Program-made: the position numbers and the translations under genes
From: Gemmataceae bacterium
GTDB lineage: Bacteria > Planctomycetota > Planctomycetia > Gemmatales > Gemmataceae
NCBI GenBank assembly: GCA_025055795.1
Contig: JANWVV010000002.1
Coordinates: 62,001-126,000 of the forward strand
Direction: 5' to 3'
DNA: 64,000 bases
Part shown: in pieces, positions 28,301 to 40,743 of the stretch
Position numbering within the stretch: position 1 is the first letter of the stretch
Layout of the letters: each line of letters opens with the position of its first letter
Notes under the pieces: model-generated
What the model was told of the DNA's origin: nothing
Database searches by the model: none
The model's input: the letters and a program-made list of their open reading frames with translations, nothing else

Positions 28301-28851
28301 AGCGACCGCTCGACGAGCTACGTGTGCCCACCCCCTTGAGCTCCGAAGGCGCTGCCCTGACACGCCAACTACTCCCGGAAAGCTTGCAGATGCTTAAAAA
28401 CCCCGATGTAACCGTCCGGATGCGTGGCGTGATGGAAAAATGCACCTACTGCGTCCAACGGTTGGAACGGGCCAAATATGGGGCCCGTATTGCCGCTACG
28501 GAAGTAGCACAAGGCCGACGTATCATCCCTACGGATCCCCATTATCGACCCAACGGCCCTCCTTCGGCATACCGTAAGCCTGTGGATCCCCACACGGCAG
28601 GATATGACCTGGACCCCTGGGGACGTGTTATTGTGCCCGATGGTCTGGTTCGCACGGCTTGCCAGGCGGTCTGTCCAACCCAGGCGATTACGTTTGGCAA
28701 CCTGTTGGATCCTACAAGTGCCGTGGCCCAGGCCAAACGCCGCGTCGGAGAATACTTGCTGCTGGGAGAGCTGAATACCAAACCTCGAACCAGTTATCTA
28801 CCTCGGATACGGAATCTCAATCCTGAACTAAAGAAGTTGCGGCCAGGTTGA
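25330..28851 (+). CDS. actB: Alternative complex III molybdopterin-like/4Fe-4S subunit (ActB)
   Basis: N-terminal [19 protein letters not shown], molybdopterin oxidoreductase-like middle, ferredoxin motifs [41 protein letters not shown]. Confidence 0.93.
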
Positions 28852-30986
28852 ACACCCAACCGCACAGCTGGGATATAGCATCGATGACACCAACTACCCC
28901 CATAATTTCTCCTGGAGCCACTATAACGGCAGCTCCTGCTCGTTTGCCGGATCCGCTGCCTCGCATCCCTTTAGTCTGGGGACCGGATACTTATGAAACG
29001 ATTACCCACCAGATCAGTCGGATCACAGAAAAGCCACAACCCTGGTGGTGGTGGCCCGCTTTCCTGATCACCTCCGGGCTGCTTACGGGTGGAGTGCTAG
29101 CTGCCACCTACCTGATCTCCACCGGCGTAGGGGTGTGGGGATCCAACAATCCTGTCAATTGGGCGTTCGACATTACCAACTTTGTCTTCTGGATCGGCAT
29201 TGGACATGCAGGAACCCTGATCTCCGCCATCCTTTTTCTGTTCCGGCAGAAATGGCGTACCAGCATCAATCGCTTCTCGGAGGCGATGACCATTTTCGCG
29301 GTCATTTGCGCGGGAGTATATCCGGGAATCCATGTGGGCCGCTTCTGGTATGCCTGGTTTATGTTCCCGTTACCCAACGCCAACCATATTTTCCAGAATT
29401 TCCGCTCTGCCCTGCTGTGGGATCTGTTCGCCGTCAGTACCTATTTCACAATCTCCCTCATCTTCTGGTACGTCGGTTTGATACCTGACTTGGCCACACT
29501 CCGGGACCGGGCCAAAAGCCGCTCACGCCAGGTTATCTTCGGCCTGCTTTCCCTCGGCTGGCGGGGCAGTACCCGACACTGGCGACACTACGAGGTGGCC
29601 TATCTGATGCTGGCAGGTTTATCGACCCCCTTGGTCCTATCTGTCCACTCGGTGGTAAGCTTCGATTTCGCTACCTCAATCCTGCCGGGGTGGCACACCA
29701 CCATCTTTCCGCCCTACTTCGTAGCAGGGGCCATCTTTGGCGGCTTCGCAATGGTCTTGCAGTGCATGATTCCGGCCCGCGCCGCCTACAAACTGCACAA
29801 TCTTGTCACCATCAAACACATCGACGTGATGTGTAAGTTCCTGCTGGCTACAGGCTCGCTGGTAGGTTACGCCTATTGCATGGAATTGTTCATCGCTTGG
29901 TATTCGGGCAACCCCTACGAATGGCAAACGTTTGTCAATCGCGCCTGGAACGGTGACTACACCTGGGCTTACTGGGTCATGATGACCTGTAATCTATTCA
30001 TTCCTCAGGTGTTCTGGATCCGTTGGTGCCGCCAGACCCCTTGGTTCGTCCTGTTGGTAGTTACCTGTATCAACGTCGGTATGTGGTACGAGCGTTTCGT
30101 CATCATCGTTCAATCGCTGCATCATGACTTTCTGCCTGCCAGTTGGGGTCGTTACTACCCCACCTGGGTGGATTGGCTTCAGATGCTCGGCGATTTCGGA
30201 CTGTTCTTCACCTTAACTTTGCTGTTTATCCGCTTCCTCCCCATGATTGCCATGGCCGAGGTTAAGGCGGTATTGCCCATGGCCAACCCTCATTACCATT
30301 ACTTACCGGCGGACCGGTACCTTAAGGGAGAGGACGGTCGCTACCCCACTGCTGACCACGCTTTGGCCGCTGCTTACGGTCCTCCGGCTCCACCGCGGAC
30401 CATAGTCCCACCAGCCACGGAACCTGTCCCCGCCTTTATTCCTACTCCCGAAGGGACAGGTCAACCGTGGGGAGCTGTAGCCGAGTTCGCCAACGCGCAG
30501 GATCTGCTCCATGCCGCTCAGGCTGCCCGTCAACACGGCTATACCCATCTGGATGCCTGGACCCCCTTTTATGTCCACGGAATGAAGGAAGCGATCGGTC
30601 GGACACGTAGCCGCTTGCCTTTGTTTACCCTGGCAGGTGCTCTCACCGGACTAGCCGCCGCTGTGACTTTGCAATTCTACTTGATGACCTACTACTACCC
30701 CACGATCGTCGGCGGCAAAGAGTATCGCTCCTGGGAAGCTTTTGTTCCGATCTTCTTCGAAATGACTGTACTATTCGCCGGATTTTTCACGCTATTTGCC
30801 TTGATCGGGTTGTGCGGTCTGCCCCGCCTATTCCACCCTCTTGACGCCCATCCCACCTTTCATCGATCGACGCAGGACGGATTTTTCTTAACCATTGAAG
30901 CGACGGATCCCCGCTTTGATGTCGACCAAACCCGGGATTTCCTACGCTCCATCGGAGGTCAACATGTAGCGGTCATCGAACGATGA
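28848..30986 (+). CDS. NrfD-like ActC fused to DUF3341 ActD
   Basis: N-terminal about 480 aa NrfD/polysulfide reductase-like ([38 protein letters not shown]), linker, then DUF3341-like C-terminus ([21 protein letters not shown]...[17 protein letters not shown]). TTG start at 28848 or ATG at 28884. Confidence 0.9.
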
Positions 30987-31057
30987 AACCCAACCGGCCG
31001 ACCCCGTTGACCATCAGCCATAGCTTCAGCGGGTAATCCTAGGGAGAATAACGACCC

Positions 31058-31939
31058 ATGTACGGTATTGACCCCAACTTGTTCATGAACGTTCTGTTGA
31101 CAATCATTCTGGCCATCGGGGCAATACTGTTTGTATTGACGTTGATCCTTGCCACGATTCACTGGCGGCGCGGCCGGATTCTAATGGGCTGGCTCTACTT
31201 GGGCGACGTGCTGTTTGGGGCCTTCGCTGTGCTCGTGGGCATCCTAGGACTGCGTGGCAAAACCAGCGATGCCCCCCCTTGGCACTTCTTCCTCGACATG
31301 AAATATCAGCCCAAATACACCGCCCAAGGAAGCAGCCGCTTTTTCCCGGACGGGCGGGCCAGTCGTCTACCGCCGGAACATACGGTTCCCTACGATGGAG
31401 CCGATTACTTTGGCGATGCTGGCTTCCATCTGGATCCGCAACCTGACTTTCTGCAAGCCGACCGCCGCTATTACACTGGCATTGCCGATTCTACGGCCGT
31501 AAAAGATGAAGGGGGTGTAAAGATCCCTCAGGGCCCACGATGGCAAGATAACCAATTGATTGGCGAAGGCTACTTTGTCAATCACATTCCCTCGCTGGCG
31601 GTCGAACGTGCGGGGGGGTGGGAATCTCTGATCCGGCAGGGACAGCGACAGTTTGACATCCATTGTGCCGTCTGCCATGGGAGCAGTGGCCGTGGCGGAG
31701 CCGGTGACGCTGCTTACGGTATCGTCGCTGCCTATGGCCTGTCCGTACCCCCCTCCAACCTTGTTACCCCCGACATTCAAGCTCAACCTGATGGCCAGAT
31801 CTTCCACACAATTACCCATGGTGTCCGCAACATGCCTGCCTATGCCCACCAGGTTGGCGTACAAGATCGCTGGGCCATCATTGCCTACCTCCGCGTTTTA
31901 CAATATGCCGCCGGCAATCCCCTGATAGATAAGCGCTGA
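31058..31939 (+). CDS. actE: Alternative complex III monoheme cytochrome c subunit (ActE)
   Basis: Single CxxCH (FDIHCAVCHGSSGRGG), N-terminal TMs, position in cluster. Confidence 0.87.
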   Translation: MYGIDPNLFMNVLLTIILAIGAILFVLTLILATIHWRRGRILMGWLYLGDVLFGAFAVLVGILGLRGKTSDAPPWHFFLDMKYQPKYTAQGSSRFFPDGRASRLPPEHTVPYDGADYFGDAGFHLDPQPDFLQADRRYYTGIADSTAVKDEGGVKIPQGPRWQDNQLIGEGYFVNHIPSLAVERAGGWESLIRQGQRQFDIHCAVCHGSSGRGGAGDAAYGIVAAYGLSVPPSNLVTPDIQAQPDGQIFHTITHGVRNMPAYAHQVGVQDRWAIIAYLRVLQYAAGNPLIDKR

Positions 31940-31951
31940 CACACTAAACAT

Positions 31952-33247
31952 TTGCGGATTTCGTCTATGAACACCGGACCGATGTTCGACAATCTGAACA
32001 GTAGCACTCATGACGATCTGACATATCCAGCCGGCTTGCCGGAAAGCGTCGCTCCCCTTGGAGCACAAGCCGATGGAATAGTCCGCGCTATCGCTACTGT
32101 GACTGCCGCGGCCGCCTTCGTCTTATTCCTGGGTGCTTTCGTTAATGGCCGCCAGTTTTTCCATTCCTACCTGTTCGGTTACGTTTTCGCCTTGGATCTG
32201 GCTCTAGGAGCTCTGTTCTGGAACCTGATTCATCATATCAGCGACGCTGGCTGGTCTGTCGGACTCCGTCGCATCTATGAAAATATCCATCGGGCTATTC
32301 TGCCATTGAGTTTACTTTTTATCCCTATCCTGATTGGTATCCACTTAGGACAACTTCATCAGTGGTACGGCTTCATCCATTCCCCTCCTCCCGAAGAGAC
32401 ACACTTACAGCACTTATGGCATGTTAAACATATCTACTTCAACACCACATTCTTTCTTTTGAGACTATGTATATACTTCAGCATTTGGATCATCTTCTCA
32501 CTAATCATGAGAAACTGGTCGATGCTCCAAGACAAGGTTGGTGGAGCAACACTCACACTGAGGATGCAACGTTGGGCCCCCCTCGGGTTGGTCCTGCTCG
32601 GTCTGAGTACAACGTTTTTCGCCTTCGACATTCTTATGAGCTTGCAATACACCTGGTTTAGCACGATCTACGGCGTGTATTACTGGGTCGGGGGATTCCG
32701 GGGGAGTCTGTCACTAGCGGTATTGCTAGTTCTAGGACTTCATGCCGCAGGATATCTCCAACGTACCATCACTATCGAACACTTGCACGATGCTGGCAAA
32801 CTTATGTTTGGTCTGACCATATTTTGGGCTTATATCGCCTTTGCCCAGTATTTCCTCATCTGGTATGGAAACATGCCGGAAGAAACACAATTCTATTTGC
32901 TACGTAGAAATGGTGCATGGTATGAAATGACAATACTTTTGCCTGTTTTGTATTTCGTTGTACCATTCTTCATGCTTCTACCTCGTGCTCATAAACGTAG
33001 TCCACGGTGGCTAGCAGCCACGGCGATGTTAATTCTCCTCATGCATGCCTACGACTTGTACTGGCAAATCATGCCCGTATTACACTCAGAGACGCTACGT
33101 TTTCATTGGCTCGATGTGGCTGCTTTTATCAGCTTCAGCGGTATCGTACTCTTGGCTACTATTTGGGGATTTCAAAGAGCACCTCTGATCCCTGTCCGCG
33201 ATGCCCGTCTTCAGGAAACGATTGACTATGTCAACGAAACTCCATGA
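31952..33247 (+). CDS. actF: Alternative complex III membrane subunit (ActF)
   Basis: About ten TM helices, quinol:cytochrome c oxidoreductase-like FWAYIAFAQYFLIWYGNMPEETQFYLLR; start at 31952 or 31967. Confidence 0.9.
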   Translation: MRISSMNTGPMFDNLNSSTHDDLTYPAGLPESVAPLGAQADGIVRAIATVTAAAAFVLFLGAFVNGRQFFHSYLFGYVFALDLALGALFWNLIHHISDAGWSVGLRRIYENIHRAILPLSLLFIPILIGIHLGQLHQWYGFIHSPPPEETHLQHLWHVKHIYFNTTFFLLRLCIYFSIWIIFSLIMRNWSMLQDKVGGATLTLRMQRWAPLGLVLLGLSTTFFAFDILMSLQYTWFSTIYGVYYWVGGFRGSLSLAVLLVLGLHAAGYLQRTITIEHLHDAGKLMFGLTIFWAYIAFAQYFLIWYGNMPEETQFYLLRRNGAWYEMTILLPVLYFVVPFFMLLPRAHKRSPRWLAATAMLILLMHAYDLYWQIMPVLHSETLRFHWLDVAAFISFSGIVLLATIWGFQRAPLIPVRDARLQETIDYVNETP

Positions 33248-33282
33248 TCTTAATATAGATGACCACCGCGTGAGGTAACCAT

Positions 33283-33663
33283 ATGGATGCATCTATACAA
33301 CAAAAAATTGATGAGGGTACACCAGTGCCAGAACCGGTGTTTCCTTATCTTACCGTTGTGGCAACCTTACTGACACTATTTTTGTTCGCCAGTCTGATGC
33401 TATTAGCGTATTATTCACCCTATGCTCCTCAAGCGGATTCTGAAACGGATGCTGATGTGCTCGATCCCATGACCAAAATGGCCGAGATTCGCGCTAAAAA
33501 CCAGGCAATCTTAGAAGGACGGCAAGACGCCGGAACGCAAATGTCTCTGCAAGCCGCTATGAGCGAACTTTTGAGCAAGCTCCGCACTGAAAAAGATACT
33601 CTGCCTTTCCCTAAACCTCCTCCTTCATTAGATAATAAAGATAACAATGTACAAAAGAAATGA
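33283..33663 (+). CDS. Small single-TM protein between ActF and cbb3 genes, unknown
   Basis: 126 aa, one TM (LTVVATLLTLFLFASLMLLAYYSPYAP) and a charged C-terminal tail. Confidence 0.7.
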   Translation: MDASIQQKIDEGTPVPEPVFPYLTVVATLLTLFLFASLMLLAYYSPYAPQADSETDADVLDPMTKMAEIRAKNQAILEGRQDAGTQMSLQAAMSELLSKLRTEKDTLPFPKPPPSLDNKDNNVQKK

Positions 33664-33721: not shown

Positions 33722-33934
33722 ATGGATCCCGTTGATGTAGCAGTCCTGTTGACCGTGTTTGGTTCCGTCCTGACTTTTGGGGGAGCAGCGGTTTGGGCGC
33801 TGAATTGGGCGGTTCAAAACGGTCAGTTTGAAAACTTCCAGCGAGGAGCATTGTCCATCTTCGATGTAGACGAACCTGTTGGTCAGGCCACAGATTACTT
33901 TCCTGGAGAAGCACCACCGCCAGCCGCATCTTGA
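33722..33934 (+). CDS. ccoS: CcoS-like cbb3 oxidase maturation protein
   Basis: Short TM protein with AVWALNWAVQNGQFENFQRGALSIFDVD, similar to the CcoS pattern; next to ccoN. Confidence 0.7.
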   Translation: MDPVDVAVLLTVFGSVLTFGGAAVWALNWAVQNGQFENFQRGALSIFDVDEPVGQATDYFPGEAPPPAAS

Positions 33935-33976: not shown

Positions 33977-35488
33977 ATGGCCGTTAACGTCCTCACGCGG
34001 GACGACCACCGCCTACAGGCTGCCCGTCACCGGGCGAGCATCGATCTGTCCTGCCGCGGACCGGTACTGGCTTTCTGCACCACGGCTCTTTTCTGGTTGC
34101 TAGTGGGTTCTGCTTTGGCACTGATCGCCTCGATCAAATTACATAGCCCTTATTTCCTAACAGGCAGTTCTGTGTTAACTTTTGGCAGGGTGCGAATGGC
34201 CCATTTGCAAGCCGTAGCCTTGGGTTGGTCCTCGTTGGCCGCCATGGCTGCGTGTCTGTGGCTGATGTGCCGGCTGTCGCGGGTGGAATTAACCTACCCA
34301 CGCATGTTGTATGTGGCGTGTGCATTGTGGAACATTGCTACCACCTTGGCCGTCGGAGGTATCCTGCTTGGCGACGGCACGTCCGTTGAATGGCTTGATG
34401 CCCCTGTGTATGCACAACCTTTCTTTGTTGCGGGGGTAGGTCTGGTAGCCGGTTGGGTGGCAGCCACCTTTCGCCGGCGTCAAGAATCTCACGTTTATGT
34501 CACACAATGGTACATCTTAGCTGCCGTCTTTTGGTTTCCGTGGCTTTACACGGTAGCAACATTAATGATTTTCTGGACACCAGTTACTGGTGTCGTACAA
34601 CCCGTTATCAACTGGTGGTTCAACCATAACTTTCTTGGATTGTGGCTAACTCCCATCGGCGTGGGTACTGCCTACTATCTCATCCCCAAAATCTTGGGTC
34701 GCCCTATCCACAGTTATTATCTCAGCATCACCGGCTTTTGGGCCCTCGCGTTGTTTTACTCGTGGGCCGGCATGCATCATCTGATTGGTGGGCCTATCCC
34801 TGCATGGTTGGCTACAGCAAGTACGGTGGGCAGTATGATGATGTTTATTCCTGTTATCGCCGTTGCCATCAATCATCACATGACAATGATTGGCTACTTC
34901 CATCGTCTCAAATACAGTCCATCACTACGATTTACTGTCTTTGGAGCTATTGCCTATACTGCTGTTAGCTTCCAGGGCTCTATTGAATCACTCAAAGATT
35001 TCAGCGAAGTGACTCACTTTACCCACTATACCGTGGGTCACGCTCATTTGGGGGCCTACGGTTTTGTCGCCATGATATTTTTCGGCCTATATTACTATAT
35101 GATACCACGTCTAACGGGCCGGGAGTGGGCCAGCAGTCGACTTATTCGTCTACATTTTTGGTGCAGTGCAATTGGCATCACCCTTTATTTCACAACTCTA
35201 TCTATTGCAGGCTGGTGGCAGGGACGCATGCTTAATAATCCTAATGTGCCCTTTGCCAATATCATAGCCTACATTCAACCTTACTTAGCTCTACGTAGTA
35301 TAGCTGGCATTTTAATGACAATTGGACATATTGCCTTTGCCATTCTATTTATTGTGAACATTGCAGGCTGGGGACGGTTACGAACAGCAGGACCCACTCT
35401 TTTCGTTGAACCTGTACAACAACACACACCAGAAGTGGCAACCTCTGTTCCCTATCTTCGACCACAATCTGTTCATCTACATCAATAG
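33977..35488 (+). CDS. ccoN: cbb3-type cytochrome c oxidase subunit I (CcoN)
   Basis: MAHLQAVALGW, NHNFLGLWLTPIGVGTAYYLIPK, FYSWAGMHHLIGGPIP, HYTVGHAHLGAYGF. Confidence 0.92.
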   Translation: MAVNVLTRDDHRLQAARHRASIDLSCRGPVLAFCTTALFWLLVGSALALIASIKLHSPYFLTGSSVLTFGRVRMAHLQAVALGWSSLAAMAACLWLMCRLSRVELTYPRMLYVACALWNIATTLAVGGILLGDGTSVEWLDAPVYAQPFFVAGVGLVAGWVAATFRRRQESHVYVTQWYILAAVFWFPWLYTVATLMIFWTPVTGVVQPVINWWFNHNFLGLWLTPIGVGTAYYLIPKILGRPIHSYYLSITGFWALALFYSWAGMHHLIGGPIPAWLATASTVGSMMMFIPVIAVAINHHMTMIGYFHRLKYSPSLRFTVFGAIAYTAVSFQGSIESLKDFSEVTHFTHYTVGHAHLGAYGFVAMIFFGLYYYMIPRLTGREWASSRLIRLHFWCSAIGITLYFTTLSIAGWWQGRMLNNPNVPFANIIAYIQPYLALRSIAGILMTIGHIAFAILFIVNIAGWGRLRTAGPTLFVEPVQQHTPEVATSVPYLRPQSVHLHQ

Positions 35489-35500
35489 TCATGTTCGAGG

Positions 35501-36334
35501 ATGACTATTATGGATCGTGGCATGGTCCTATTTGTAGGTGCTCTTTTAACATTCACGTCCAGTTGGTTAGGACTGGTGCTGTTTCCGTTTTGGCAGTTAC
35601 AAAATCAGCCACCCTATCGCTCAGAACCTACCGACGATCCTTATCCACGTCCCCTTCAGGGTCTTGCATGGGTAGGAATGAAAGTCTATCAACAAAGTGG
35701 TTGCATGTATTGTCATAGTCAACAGATCCGCAGCGATCGTTTTGGGAATTGGTGGGAAGAACCTATAGGTATGATGCGTACGGGTGGAGATATCAAACGT
35801 GGCTGGGGACTGCGACGCACTGTGCCGCGTGATTATATATATGACTACCCTACAATGTTAGGGACAATGCGTACGGGACCTGATCTTTCAAACGTAGGCA
35901 GCCGTTATTCTGCTCTATGGCAACACATACATACTTACAATCCACGGGCATTCAACAACTGGAGCATCATGCCATCGTTTGCCTACTTATATCGCAAGGA
36001 GAAAATAGTCGGTTCGAGGTCGGAAAAGGCCCTACCACTAGGAAGAGAATGGACGGTCCATCCTGGCTACCGCTGGCGTCCATCTGAGGCTGAATGGGAA
36101 TTAATCTTGAGGGAGCAAGGCACTTATATTCTGACAAGCTATCTTGCAGAGACACCGCAACCAGACAACCTTAATCTGGCCACACTGCAGGGAAAACGAC
36201 AATTGTTGGAATATTGGCTTGCCACCCCTGAAGAAGACTGGCAACTGGTGCCCACTCCTCAGGCTGAAGCCCTCGTAGCGTATCTGCTAACCCTACGGAA
36301 AGCCGAATATCCCCTTCCGGAGGCGAAAGAATGA
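35501..36334 (+). CDS. ccoO: cbb3-type cytochrome c oxidase subunit II (CcoO)
   Basis: TM anchor, CMYCHSQQIRSD, GPDLSNVGSRYS, HIHTYNPRAFNNWSIMPSF. Confidence 0.92.
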   Translation: MTIMDRGMVLFVGALLTFTSSWLGLVLFPFWQLQNQPPYRSEPTDDPYPRPLQGLAWVGMKVYQQSGCMYCHSQQIRSDRFGNWWEEPIGMMRTGGDIKRGWGLRRTVPRDYIYDYPTMLGTMRTGPDLSNVGSRYSALWQHIHTYNPRAFNNWSIMPSFAYLYRKEKIVGSRSEKALPLGREWTVHPGYRWRPSEAEWELILREQGTYILTSYLAETPQPDNLNLATLQGKRQLLEYWLATPEEDWQLVPTPQAEALVAYLLTLRKAEYPLPEAKE

Positions 36335-37197
36335 ATCCCATGCCTTCGAAGCCTAATGAAGATGAAACGCCAAGACCATTTGTCACCTCTCCATATCAGC
36401 AAGAGTACGTGGAAGAAGTTGAAATTGCTGACGAGGAGCGCGATACGATCCAGAGAATGATGGATGTGCTCGCTCGTGAGCATGCAGAACCGCGAGACGG
36501 GTTCGAACCAGTGCCGTTTTGGGTAGCTGTTGTATCTGCGGGACTGCTAGCTTGGGGGGGGTACTATGTGGGCACTAATTCCGCGGATTTTCGACCCGAC
36601 GTTTATGATCGAAGTGACCTGACCGTAGGAAGTAGTACATCTGCAGGCCAATCAGGCGGACCAGAACCTGATCCACAAACGGTAACCGAGCTCATGAAAA
36701 TCGGCGAACAAAAATATGCCGCTATATGTGCTTCATGCCATCAACCAAACGGGCAAGGCAACTTGGCCCAAGGCATTCCACCGCTTGACGGCTCTGAATG
36801 GGTAGTTGGCGAACAGGCATCACCGGCCAGATTGGCACGTATTGTTCTCTACGGCCTAAGTGGACCGATCACGGTTAAGGGACGCGTTTATAATGGGCAA
36901 ATGCCGGCCCAAGGAAATGTATTGAAAGACTATGAGATAGCGGCTGTCCTCACCTATATACGCAATAGCTGGACCAACAAAGCAGATAAAGAAAATAATC
37001 AATCCTCAATAGTAGCAGCTGTTATAAGGGCAGCAAGATTAGTTGAAGGAAATCGCAAAACGAATGGAACGCAGCCTTATACGGTAAATGAATTGAAAAA
37101 AATTCCGATTAATTATTCTGATTTCGGCAGCATACCCATTAAAAAAGATGAAAAAGAAACAAGAGATAAGGGGAAAACTCTAAATGAGAAAAAATAA
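36331..37197 (+). CDS. CcoP-like monoheme cytochrome c (cbb3 subunit III-like)
   Basis: One TM (FWVAVVSAGLLAWGGYYVG), one CxxCH (CASCHQPNGQG), C-terminal Lys/Asn-rich tail. Confidence 0.82.
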   Translation: MNPMPSKPNEDETPRPFVTSPYQQEYVEEVEIADEERDTIQRMMDVLAREHAEPRDGFEPVPFWVAVVSAGLLAWGGYYVGTNSADFRPDVYDRSDLTVGSSTSAGQSGGPEPDPQTVTELMKIGEQKYAAICASCHQPNGQGNLAQGIPPLDGSEWVVGEQASPARLARIVLYGLSGPITVKGRVYNGQMPAQGNVLKDYEIAAVLTYIRNSWTNKADKENNQSSIVAAVIRAARLVEGNRKTNGTQPYTVNELKKIPINYSDFGSIPIKKDEKETRDKGKTLNEKK

Positions 37198-39922
37198 TAA
37201 TGGAAATGCCAGTACAAAATTCTGTAGCAACTGTGGTATTCCACTACCACAATATCCCCTGATGGGCAGACCCTGGAATGGTGCACCGCCTGCCTATTAC
37301 TGTTGCTACGGATGCTTAGCAGTCGGCGAAGAGCATAAAGAAAAGCAACAAATCACTGAAAATACTGACACATCGCAGTTCATATCACGATTATCACTTT
37401 CAGGTTGGAAATTAGGTATATCAATATTGATAGTATCACAAATAATGATTTTTGGTATTGCTGTCAATCTACATCGTGATATATCATCTCAAACCAAATT
37501 ATTTGTAAAAATTATCATCATGATAGGTGCAATAATAGTCTCTATTGTACTAGGTAGCAATTTATTAAAAACTGTGTACATAAATCTAGTACAAAGAAGA
37601 ATTAGTATAGAGTTATTATTTCTAATAACACTATTAGGATCCTTTATTGCATCATGTGATTCATTGGTCAATGATTATGAATATACTTATTTTGAAGTTA
37701 TTCCCATTTTATTAATCACATATACATTAGGAAATATAATAGTTGCCAAGGCGCGAGAGCGAGCTATCCAAAAAGCGGCATCATGGAGCGAAGAAATATG
37801 TATAGCACGTAAGGTAACAACTAATCAAGAGTATTGCTTAGTGCCTGTTGATAAGATAGAGATAGGTGACTATATTCAGGTGCGACCCGGCGAACTGGTT
37901 CCAGTAAACGGTGTGATCACCCAGGGAACAGCATATGTCTTTTCGCATCTGCTTACAGGCAATCAACATCCAATGATACGACGAATAAATGATATAATAT
38001 ATGCAGGAGAGATAGTATATGATTCAGTTCTCTATATAAGAGTAGCAGAAAGTGGTAAAGATCGTTGGATCAATAGTATTATTAACACTGTAAAAAAAAC
38101 TCAGACAGATATACAACTAGAGCCGTCTTATGTAAATTGGATTACAAAAATATTCGTCAAAATATTAATCATTGTTTCTTTAGTAACCTTTCTTTATTGG
38201 TATGTCTTACAAGAAGTTCCCTGGCACAGAGCCTTGTATTACTCGTCAAGCGTACTACTGGTGTCATGTCCTTGCGTATTTGGAATCGCTATTCCATTGA
38301 TCACCTGGAGGACTATACGCCTACTAGCCGATAACGGATTGATAGTAAGAAAACATGATTTCATACGAAAAATCCCAGAAATCACATGTATCGTATTTGA
38401 CAAAACTGGCACACTGACACATATTGACAAATATGACATCGAAATAATAACACCTTTGCATGGACAGGAACGAAATATCCTGCTGTCGCAGCTATCATTT
38501 ATAGAACAACACACCAATCATCCAGTAGCAGTCGCACTTCGCGATCTATATAATCATACCGCAGAACATAATAGATGTATTTTACATAAATTGACAATCG
38601 TCCCAGCCTGTGGTATTACTGCAGAAATTGAACAGGATGGGACAAGGTTCACATATGACATCGGTACAAGTGACTGGATTCTGAAAATTTGTGATACATC
38701 TCTTTTCAAACAAGTATGGAACATTAATGAAAATAGTAATATACATGGCAGTATACTTATATCACGGAATAAAGTTTTATTATGTATTATGAATTTAAGA
38801 GAAAGATGGCATGATAATATTGATAATATACTAGAAAAACTAATTAATATGCGGGTCAAAATATATATACTAACTGGAGAGAAAGATAGCTATATATATA
38901 ATTCCAAGAATGTAGTATTATGTACTAATATGTCCCCAGCACAAAAAGAGCAATTTGTTCAAATGAAAATTGAGCAGAAGGAAAAGGTTCTATATATAGG
39001 AGATGGTATTAACGATGTGCCAGCCATGTGTTGCTCCTATGTGTCTATCGGAATTGCAAGCAGGAGTGATCTAGTAGCATCATTGACTGATGCTATACTT
39101 TATAATAGAGACTTAGGTATAATACCTTGGGTAATTGATATTTGTAGCAGAGCGCGTGTTGCACTAGCCAAATCCTTAACATTTGCACTAATATATAATC
39201 TTTTGGGCATCTCGATGGCTGCTATGGGCATATTAGATCCTGTCTCAGCATCATTGTTAATGACATTCTCGGGATTGACCCTAATAACCTATATGGAGAG
39301 GATATATGAACAAAGTAAATGTCACTATAGAAGAGATCTTAATAAAATGTATTCTATGAACAGAAATATACTAACAATTATTGTAGTAGTATCTATTACT
39401 ATTTACGGAACAATAATACTGCATATTTATAGATATGATTTTTTATTAATATTATATATAATTATAATTACGTTGATTTCCTATTTACTATACTTTTGGA
39501 ACATTGATTATATGATCATGTTCTCATCTATGATGATATCAGCTAGTTTAAGTCATGTTTTCAATCTCTCATCAAATATACAAAGTTCATATGCACAAAT
39601 TTGCTACCCGTTGAACTCACTAAGTGAATTTGGTGCCATAGTTTCCATGTTAATCCTAAGTAACGTATTTTCAATATTATTCTGTTGGAAGCAAACAACA
39701 AACATACATAAATTTTCTATGCTAATCGGAGGTAATCTAGGTATGCTATTGGGTTTTGGGATATTACATACAAATGTCAATAGTGTTTATCCGCCAATCT
39801 ATTACAATCATCTAATAATGGATATTGTTATGTTCCTTGGCATGACAGTCGGAACAGTCATTATGGAAAATATATTTCATTTGTCACTCAAATTTCATCA
39901 TATTTCATGCAATAGCTATTAA
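37184..39922 (+). CDS. CcoI-like heavy-metal P1B-type ATPase with atypical TGN motif and C-terminal multi-TM extension
   Basis: N-terminal CSNCGIP...YYCCYGC, CPC (SCPCVFGIAIP), FDKTGTLTH, HTNHPVA, GDGINDVPA; last about 200 aa are extra hydrophobic segments. Confidence 0.88.
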   Translation: MRKNNNGNASTKFCSNCGIPLPQYPLMGRPWNGAPPAYYCCYGCLAVGEEHKEKQQITENTDTSQFISRLSLSGWKLGISILIVSQIMIFGIAVNLHRDISSQTKLFVKIIIMIGAIIVSIVLGSNLLKTVYINLVQRRISIELLFLITLLGSFIASCDSLVNDYEYTYFEVIPILLITYTLGNIIVAKARERAIQKAASWSEEICIARKVTTNQEYCLVPVDKIEIGDYIQVRPGELVPVNGVITQGTAYVFSHLLTGNQHPMIRRINDIIYAGEIVYDSVLYIRVAESGKDRWINSIINTVKKTQTDIQLEPSYVNWITKIFVKILIIVSLVTFLYWYVLQEVPWHRALYYSSSVLLVSCPCVFGIAIPLITWRTIRLLADNGLIVRKHDFIRKIPEITCIVFDKTGTLTHIDKYDIEIITPLHGQERNILLSQLSFIEQHTNHPVAVALRDLYNHTAEHNRCILHKLTIVPACGITAEIEQDGTRFTYDIGTSDWILKICDTSLFKQVWNINENSNIHGSILISRNKVLLCIMNLRERWHDNIDNILEKLINMRVKIYILTGEKDSYIYNSKNVVLCTNMSPAQKEQFVQMKIEQKEKVLYIGDGINDVPAMCCSYVSIGIASRSDLVASLTDAILYNRDLGIIPWVIDICSRARVALAKSLTFALIYNLLGISMAAMGILDPVSASLLMTFSGLTLITYMERIYEQSKCHYRRDLNKMYSMNRNILTIIVVVSITIYGTIILHIYRYDFLLILYIIIITLISYLLYFWNIDYMIMFSSMMISASLSHVFNLSSNIQSSYAQICYPLNSLSEFGAIVSMLILSNVFSILFCWKQTTNIHKFSMLIGGNLGMLLGFGILHTNVNSVYPPIYYNHLIMDIVMFLGMTVGTVIMENIFHLSLKFHHISCNSY

Positions 39923-40743
39923 ATAATGAAGTAGTATAACGACAACATGAATGCTATTATAATTACTATGTATCGCACGAATTGAGAAGGCAATTTGCGT
40001 GCAACACTAGCTCCCGTATATCCTCCTGCCATCGCTGTTAAAATCATGGGTATTGCATAGTTCCATACAATCATATCGTTGCAAACAAATATTAAAATTG
40101 AAGCTGTATTGATCACTGCGGCAAGAAATGTTTTGACAGCATTCATGAAATGGATATTTCCAATATTCATAAAACCTAATACAGATAACATCAAAATACC
40201 TATCCCGGCACCGAAGTAACCACCATATAGTGATATCAGAAACTGAATTATGGCTGCCAATATATATTTCACTTTCGATGATGCATAATTCAATTTTGAG
40301 CTTGTGTGTTCACCATAGTGTTTCTTTACCCATCGGTATAGGGGTCCTTGAATCATGAAGAGGATTGCCGCCAATAAAATCAACCAAGGAACTAGCGCCG
40401 AGAAGATACCTGGTGCTATAGCTACTAACCAAGCTCCTATTCCACCCCCGAGCAAGCTTGGCGGCAGCATGCGCAAGGCGAAATGCCGGCAATTCCAAAG
40501 CTCTCGGCGATACCCTAATGCCCCTGCGTACGAACCAGGTAGCAAAGCTAATGTACTTGTTGCATTCGCCAGAGCCGGATCTGTGACTGCTGAAAGTGCC
40601 GGAAAGGTCAATAGGGTGCCGCCACCTGCTATAGAATTAATGACACCGGCACCAAATGCGGCCAAGCATAGTACGGTGTAGACCTCCCACTGTTCCATAA
40701 TAATAAAGCAGTACGCCGCACTGTGCGATCGACCAGTGTTCAT
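39919..40743 (-). CDS. TauE/SafE family membrane protein
   Basis: AFGAGVINSIAGGGTLLTFPALSAV and second-half LSLYGGYFGAGIGILMLSVLGF. Confidence 0.88.
   Translation of the reverse strand: MNTGRSHSAAYCFIIMEQWEVYTVLCLAAFGAGVINSIAGGGTLLTFPALSAVTDPALANATSTLALLPGSYAGALGYRRELWNCRHFALRMLPPSLLGGGIGAWLVAIAPGIFSALVPWLILLAAILFMIQGPLYRWVKKHYGEHTSSKLNYASSKVKYILAAIIQFLISLYGGYFGAGIGILMLSVLGFMNIGNIHFMNAVKTFLAAVINTASILIFVCNDMIVWNYAIPMILTAMAGGYTGASVARKLPSQFVRYIVIIIAFMLSLYYFII

Follow-up and report, generated by a model that had tools for sequence, protein, structure and literature searches.

A methionine-rich six-helix extension of a CcoI-type ATPase in the Gemmata lineage as a candidate Cu(I)-handling domain

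What is the role of the approximately 205 residues by which a P-type ATPase, encoded in a 64,000-nucleotide stretch of Gemmataceae DNA (hereafter the window), continues beyond the MxxS of its last standard membrane helix? The gene (37184-39922, forward strand) is a single open frame of 912 codons for a CcoI-type copper P1B-ATPase with a C-terminal membrane extension. It is preceded on the same strand by ccoS (FixS; 33722-33934, with a match at 33770-33853 of 26.4 bits, above the cut-off), ccoN (33977-35488; COX1, 1.5e-74), ccoO (35501-36334; FixO, 1.3e-20) and a gene for a ccoP-like cytochrome c (36331-37197; Cytochrome_CBB3, 7.1e-10). This ccoS-ccoN-ccoO-ccoP-ccoI order, of which the ccoNOP-ccoI part recurs in many relatives, identifies the ATPase as the CcoI of a cbb3 oxidase. 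Convergent with ccoI lies a gene for a TauE/SafE-family membrane protein (39919-40743, reverse strand); many Gemmata-type loci retain this gene behind the tail, which suggests a role in the same pathway. Directly upstream of the ccoS-ccoN-ccoO-ccoP genes, the ORFs at 28848-33663 look, by eye, like an alternative complex III cluster.

In the alignment, the core of the window protein shows the P1B-ATPase motifs CPC (362-364), DKTGTLT (406-412), GDGIND (606-611), YN (671-672) and MxxS (693-696), so that both the DKTGT phosphorylation motif and the GDGxND of CcoI/FixI are present. The CcoI/FixI second-site motif is likewise found as YN671-672 and M693xxS696, with Gly in place of the second Ser. 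An N-terminal cysteine cluster (C14xxC17 ... YC40C41YGC44; 37223-37315, forward strand) is kept in most relatives. The protein thus shares these motifs, the cysteine cluster and the ccoSNOP neighbourhood with CcoI/FixI (a CopA2-type P1B-1 ATPase), from which it differs in adding a six-helix, Met-rich C-terminal domain and in lacking the actuator glutamate. Because N260 stands in place of this glutamate, we file the window ATPase only as CcoI-derived, by homology and position, and as a candidate pump rather than a proven active one.

NCBIfam heavy-metal ATPase models end at around residue 700, and the hydrophobic extension domain (residues 709-912; 39308-39919, forward strand) comprises six membrane helices predicted from models. 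The first-pass annotation had stated that the frame runs on as a multi-TM tail past the usual last helix, and this was borne out by conservation in relatives and by a profile built without the window copy, which still detected the window tail with 30.2 bits (none of 200 shuffles exceeded 4.3 bits), the significant local alignment being confined to the last three helices. All five extra helices listed in that annotation are present; however, the models give six in total, and helix c (DYMIMFSSMMISASLSHVF, 39509-39562), located between its second and third, had been missed.

All elements of the tail lie on the forward strand. Helices a (724-748) and b (753-770; together 39353-39493) are little conserved. 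Helix c (776-793), the most diagnostic helix in relatives, contains M779xxxM783 and H791 at a place where the family reads HxxDMxxGMLTLGNLGMxxGWWAD. It is followed by C807 (39602-39604), the single cysteine remaining of a family CC-x-C cluster, and by helix d (811-833; 39614-39682), which retains M822 from the family motif MWxGMLxxxNxAM. Helix e (840-864; 39701-39775) carries the best preserved motif, M846xxGGNxGM854, and helix f (873-911; 39800-39916) combines M879xxxM883xxxM887 with G886 and G890 of the glycine zipper. An AF2 model of the domain from a relative (locus L046) shows six helices with a pLDDT of 86. Since modelling of the complete window protein gave a poor tail (block pLDDT of approximately 30-60), tail structure was read from the relatives.

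Searched alone, the tail gave no family match in Pfam, NCBIfam or PHROGs and no match to PDB sequences, and Foldseek against the PDB and a viral library yielded best E values of 0.7 and 0.39, with nothing at E <= 0.001. The tail showed no homology to known copper transporters, and papers on the domain were likewise not found in the open-licence literature. Pfam DUF3429 matched across the junction of core and tail with E 0.0037 and 18 bits, under the 39.1 cut-off; this match and scattered weak library matches were dismissed as hydrophobic chance. With neither a catalogued family nor a PDB fold to its name, the tail would represent a new copper-handling module.

Of 298 genomes searched in the class, 35 contain the domain, with one match each; they belong mainly to the Gemmata family, and the same architecture is shared by another family within the class. 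A ccoN of this type is encoded in 37 of the 298. Both were present in 33 genomes, the tail only in 2, ccoN only in 4 and neither in 259 (raw counts, kinship ignored). The tail-only pair consists of a genome with an edge-truncated ccoN (G035) and a fragmented assembly (G161), while the four ccoN-only genomes are two fragmented assemblies (G245, G251) and two members of other families (G046, G238). In G032, G073, G094, G222, G010 and others, the tail gene and ccoN are far apart or on separate contigs, and their co-occurrence even where unlinked indicates a connection that is more than hitch-hiking.

In both G046 and G238, the CcoI encoded beside ccoN ends normally, without a tail (731 and 707-709 residues, respectively), which marks the tail as an addition in part of the class and not as a general CcoI feature. 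Two objections foreseen in the first-pass annotation, namely, that the extension is a common CcoI C-terminus or that it is absent in all relatives, are thus contradicted by these normal ends and by conservation in 35 of the 298 class genomes, respectively. Searches across the phylum and across the class of G465 added one further fused tail, in that other class (G465 itself), and two marginal matches were disregarded. A genome-wide scan with one motif pattern returned planctomycete-type loci only; one of its matches, JAIXLE010000261.1 (L046 / L084), is titled as a Bacteroidales MAG and is likely mislabelled. No tail was found in the plasmid records searched.

In nearly all cases the tail is fused to CcoI, and our searches found no stand-alone homologues away from ccoI. 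Separate tail ORFs (in G222, G301, G288 and others) were considered as such homologues and rejected: they lie directly behind the ATPase, with the core also broken in several, and are therefore read as frameshifts. The proposal that a formerly stand-alone assembly factor had been fused to the pump is left unsupported by these observations. Splits of the ccoI frame near the core/tail junction or within the core were also seen in L078, L039, L080, L081 and L034 and are probably frameshifts. Frames broken near the junction in several relatives would be expected if the tail were a chance read-through or an assembly artefact, but this explanation, to which we assign a negligible probability, is refuted by fusion and conservation across numerous independent genomes and contigs. 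Most genomes checked encode Sco1/SenC and CcoS, and a role of the tail as a replacement for either was rejected because both are present in most tail genomes. FixH is absent from most genomes checked, with or without the tail.

Alignment of 15 canonical tails revealed 12 Met columns that are invariant in all 15 (L046 domain positions 85, 89, 97, 128, 132, 140, 157, 165, 169, 195, 199 and 203). Helices c, d, e and f each contain an MX3M pair (extended to MX3MX3M in f), giving five pairs altogether, and these are interleaved with eight GX3G-type pairs (glycine zippers), besides which conserved Trp residues are found. Met content reaches 5-9% in the tail versus 1-3% in the core. Helix c opens with HxxDM, which results in HxxxMxxxM, and closes with GWWAD, followed by CC-x-C. 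Loop d-e contains a mean of 2.8 Lys/Arg residues and loop e-f 0.25; from these charges and the even number of helices we infer that the C-terminus is inside and CC-x-C outside, which would expose the cluster to the periplasm. When aligned to each other, hairpins c-d and e-f score 32.7, whereas none of 200 column shuffles exceeds 24.3, a sign of internal duplication.

Several published systems bear on what such a domain might do. The combination of MxxxM and HxxxM predicts copper import in the CcoA-like transporters needed for cbb3 oxidase (PMC6362234), and both patterns are found in the relatives' tails (H81-M85-M89 plus further MX3M), the window copy being devoid of the His. Ctr1 selects Cu+ by MX3M and packs through a glycine zipper (PMC6437178). 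In Rhodobacter, CuB requires import by CcoA and export by CcoI, and it has been suggested that a membrane complex of CcoA and CcoI would be advantageous (PMC5829832); furthermore, a functional CcoI-SenC fusion has been published (PMC8475189). Taken as precedents, CcoA-like transporters, Ctr1, the CcoA-CcoI complex and CcoI-SenC lead us to read the tail as a probable Cu(I) conduit or site. The similarities have limits in each case. The tail shares MxxxM and HxxxM in membrane helices and the tie to cbb3 oxidase with the CcoA/CalT importers, but it has six helices instead of the approximately 12 of the MFS, lacks an MFS match and is fused to an exporter. With the CTR1 channel it shares MX3M pairs and glycine zippers in membrane helices, whereas CTR1 is a trimer and the tail has no Ctr-family Pfam match and no sequence or fold match to it in the PDB. 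The engineered Rhodobacter capsulatus CcoI-SenC also places a copper-handling membrane protein at the CcoI C-terminus; SenC, however, is a periplasmic Cu chaperone from the Sco family, held by a membrane anchor, while the natural tail is almost entirely membrane helix. The best reading of these comparisons is that the tail would work like CTR1 or CcoA yet belong to neither.

We therefore propose, with confidence evenly poised between acceptance and doubt, that CcoI, the supplier of CuB in the cbb3 oxidase, carries in its fused tail a lineage-specific domain that is embedded in the membrane and handles Cu(I). The invariant Met, the MX3M pairs, Met enrichment, co-occurrence with ccoN, operon order and the six-helix model are all in favour of this proposal, while the absence of homology to known copper transporters and the motif losses in the window copy count against it. 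The suggestion in the first-pass annotation that the tail may be an undescribed metal-handling module is upheld in part: neither family nor fold is matched, and the invariant MX3M, HxxxM and CC-x-C motifs and the cbb3 tie agree with it, copper transport itself being our interpretation. Mechanistically, the tail methionines would form the lining of a path or binding site for Cu(I), and copper might be exchanged directly between tail and pump, in either direction, which would keep it apart from the free pool. We lean weakly towards inward movement, in the manner of CcoA or CTR1, feeding the pump, because the invariant Met span the whole depth of the membrane and a passive Cu+ path runs inward. 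In a bolder version, which we regard as rather doubtful, the tail would represent a Cu(I) transporter or channel fold not described before, in which a Met/Gly hairpin occurs in duplicate and which is permanently fused to CcoI, so that one polypeptide would both import copper and export it for CuB loading.

Ranked close behind the inward conduit is an exit-side acceptor, in which the periplasmic CC-x-C would take Cu(I) released by the pump and, acting as a membrane chaperone built into the protein, hold it or pass it on to CcoN or Sco. The predicted periplasmic location of CC-x-C, the fixed fusion to an exporter together with the cbb3 co-occurrence and the functional artificial CcoI-SenC fusion (PMC8475189) speak for it. 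We nevertheless judge it unlikely, given that invariant Met also occupy those halves of helices c, d and e that are predicted to be cytosolic, where they would be superfluous for an exit-side site, and that most tail genomes already encode Sco1/SenC. Met residues beside Gly could also serve helix packing alone, and a structural scaffold for docking CcoI to CcoN or for pump dimerisation would accommodate the glycine zippers and conserved Trp, which are typical packing elements, as well as the genomic link to ccoN. Twelve strictly invariant, MX3M-spaced Met plus His/Cys positions exceed the needs of packing, however, and in the window tail Met positions were retained more often than other conserved positions (7/11 versus 6/25), although marginally (Fisher p = 0.056); we thus hold the scaffold to be less probable still than the acceptor.

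The preferred Cu(I)-handling reading is drawn from the relatives, and the window tail, a member of the family by homology and position, appears eroded. Of the 12 invariant Met it retains 8, and of the four that are lost one is replaced by His791. Also missing are GWWAD, two of the three Cys and, from HxxDM, the His and Asp; the Gly, Trp, His and Asp residues of helix c are gone. In the core, the actuator motif reads TGN (258-260; 37955-37963, forward strand), compared to GE in 14/14 extension-bearing relatives; the position of N260 is also occupied by Glu in the CcoI of G046, which has no extension. This glutamate, which acts as the phosphatase residue, has been described as a feature of all pumps (PMC10654040), and its loss here had gone unmentioned in the first-pass annotation. 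Further changes are TGD to TGE in the P-domain (564-566; 38873-38881, forward strand), LHP to LDP, and the last Ser of MxxSS to Gly. From these substitutions, the pump cycle of the window ATPase is probably impaired; with its frame intact, the pump would be either in early decay or shifting its role.

GC content is approximately 35% in the window ccoI and 28% in its tail, compared to 50% in ccoN and around 50% in the neighbours, a drop seen in the window's genus and not in the other loci compared. Between the window and its congener G001, the ATPases share 41% identity versus 88% for ccoN; in other pairs, whose ccoN identity is 91-93%, the ATPases remain at 78-83%. The core/ccoN branch-length ratio, summed from trees, was approximately 7.8 in the window's clade versus 2.7 and 2.0 in two others. 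In a comparison of the window with L083, ccoI evolution in the genus appeared around 3-4-fold faster. Replacement by a foreign AT-rich gene is not needed as an explanation, since the 41% versus 88% identity demands fast change within the genus anyway, although a single older transfer may have taken place.

For the window species only, these data raise the possibility that pump and tail are decaying and CcoI is losing function, with the frame still open through recency or weak selection. The four core substitutions, the low GC of core and tail relative to ccoN and the elevated branch-length ratio are as expected from decay. However, 912 codons without a stop at such a GC content, the membrane helices and 8/12 Met retained, and the congener G001, whose ATPase is AT-rich and fast too, yet keeps TGE/TGD and all tail motifs, argue in the opposite direction, and we hold this reading tentatively, at somewhat below even confidence. 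It covers the window copy alone and is compatible with every reading of the domain. The window copy also poses the question of whether a CcoI without the actuator glutamate can still support an oxidase. More generally, the fate of CcoI-exported copper has been described as unclear (PMC5829832), and the natural, conserved fusion would place a candidate partner on the pump's own chain and offers an obvious set of residues for mutation.

Finally, the linker between core and tail in several Gemmata-type genomes carries in-frame palindromic repeat DNA (e.g., CCCCCTCCCTGCAGGGAGGGGG). Such repeats were located at L033:4028-4204, L043:5860-6021 and L096:9840-10136, and are translated into SPSxLRGGVGEG-like peptides.
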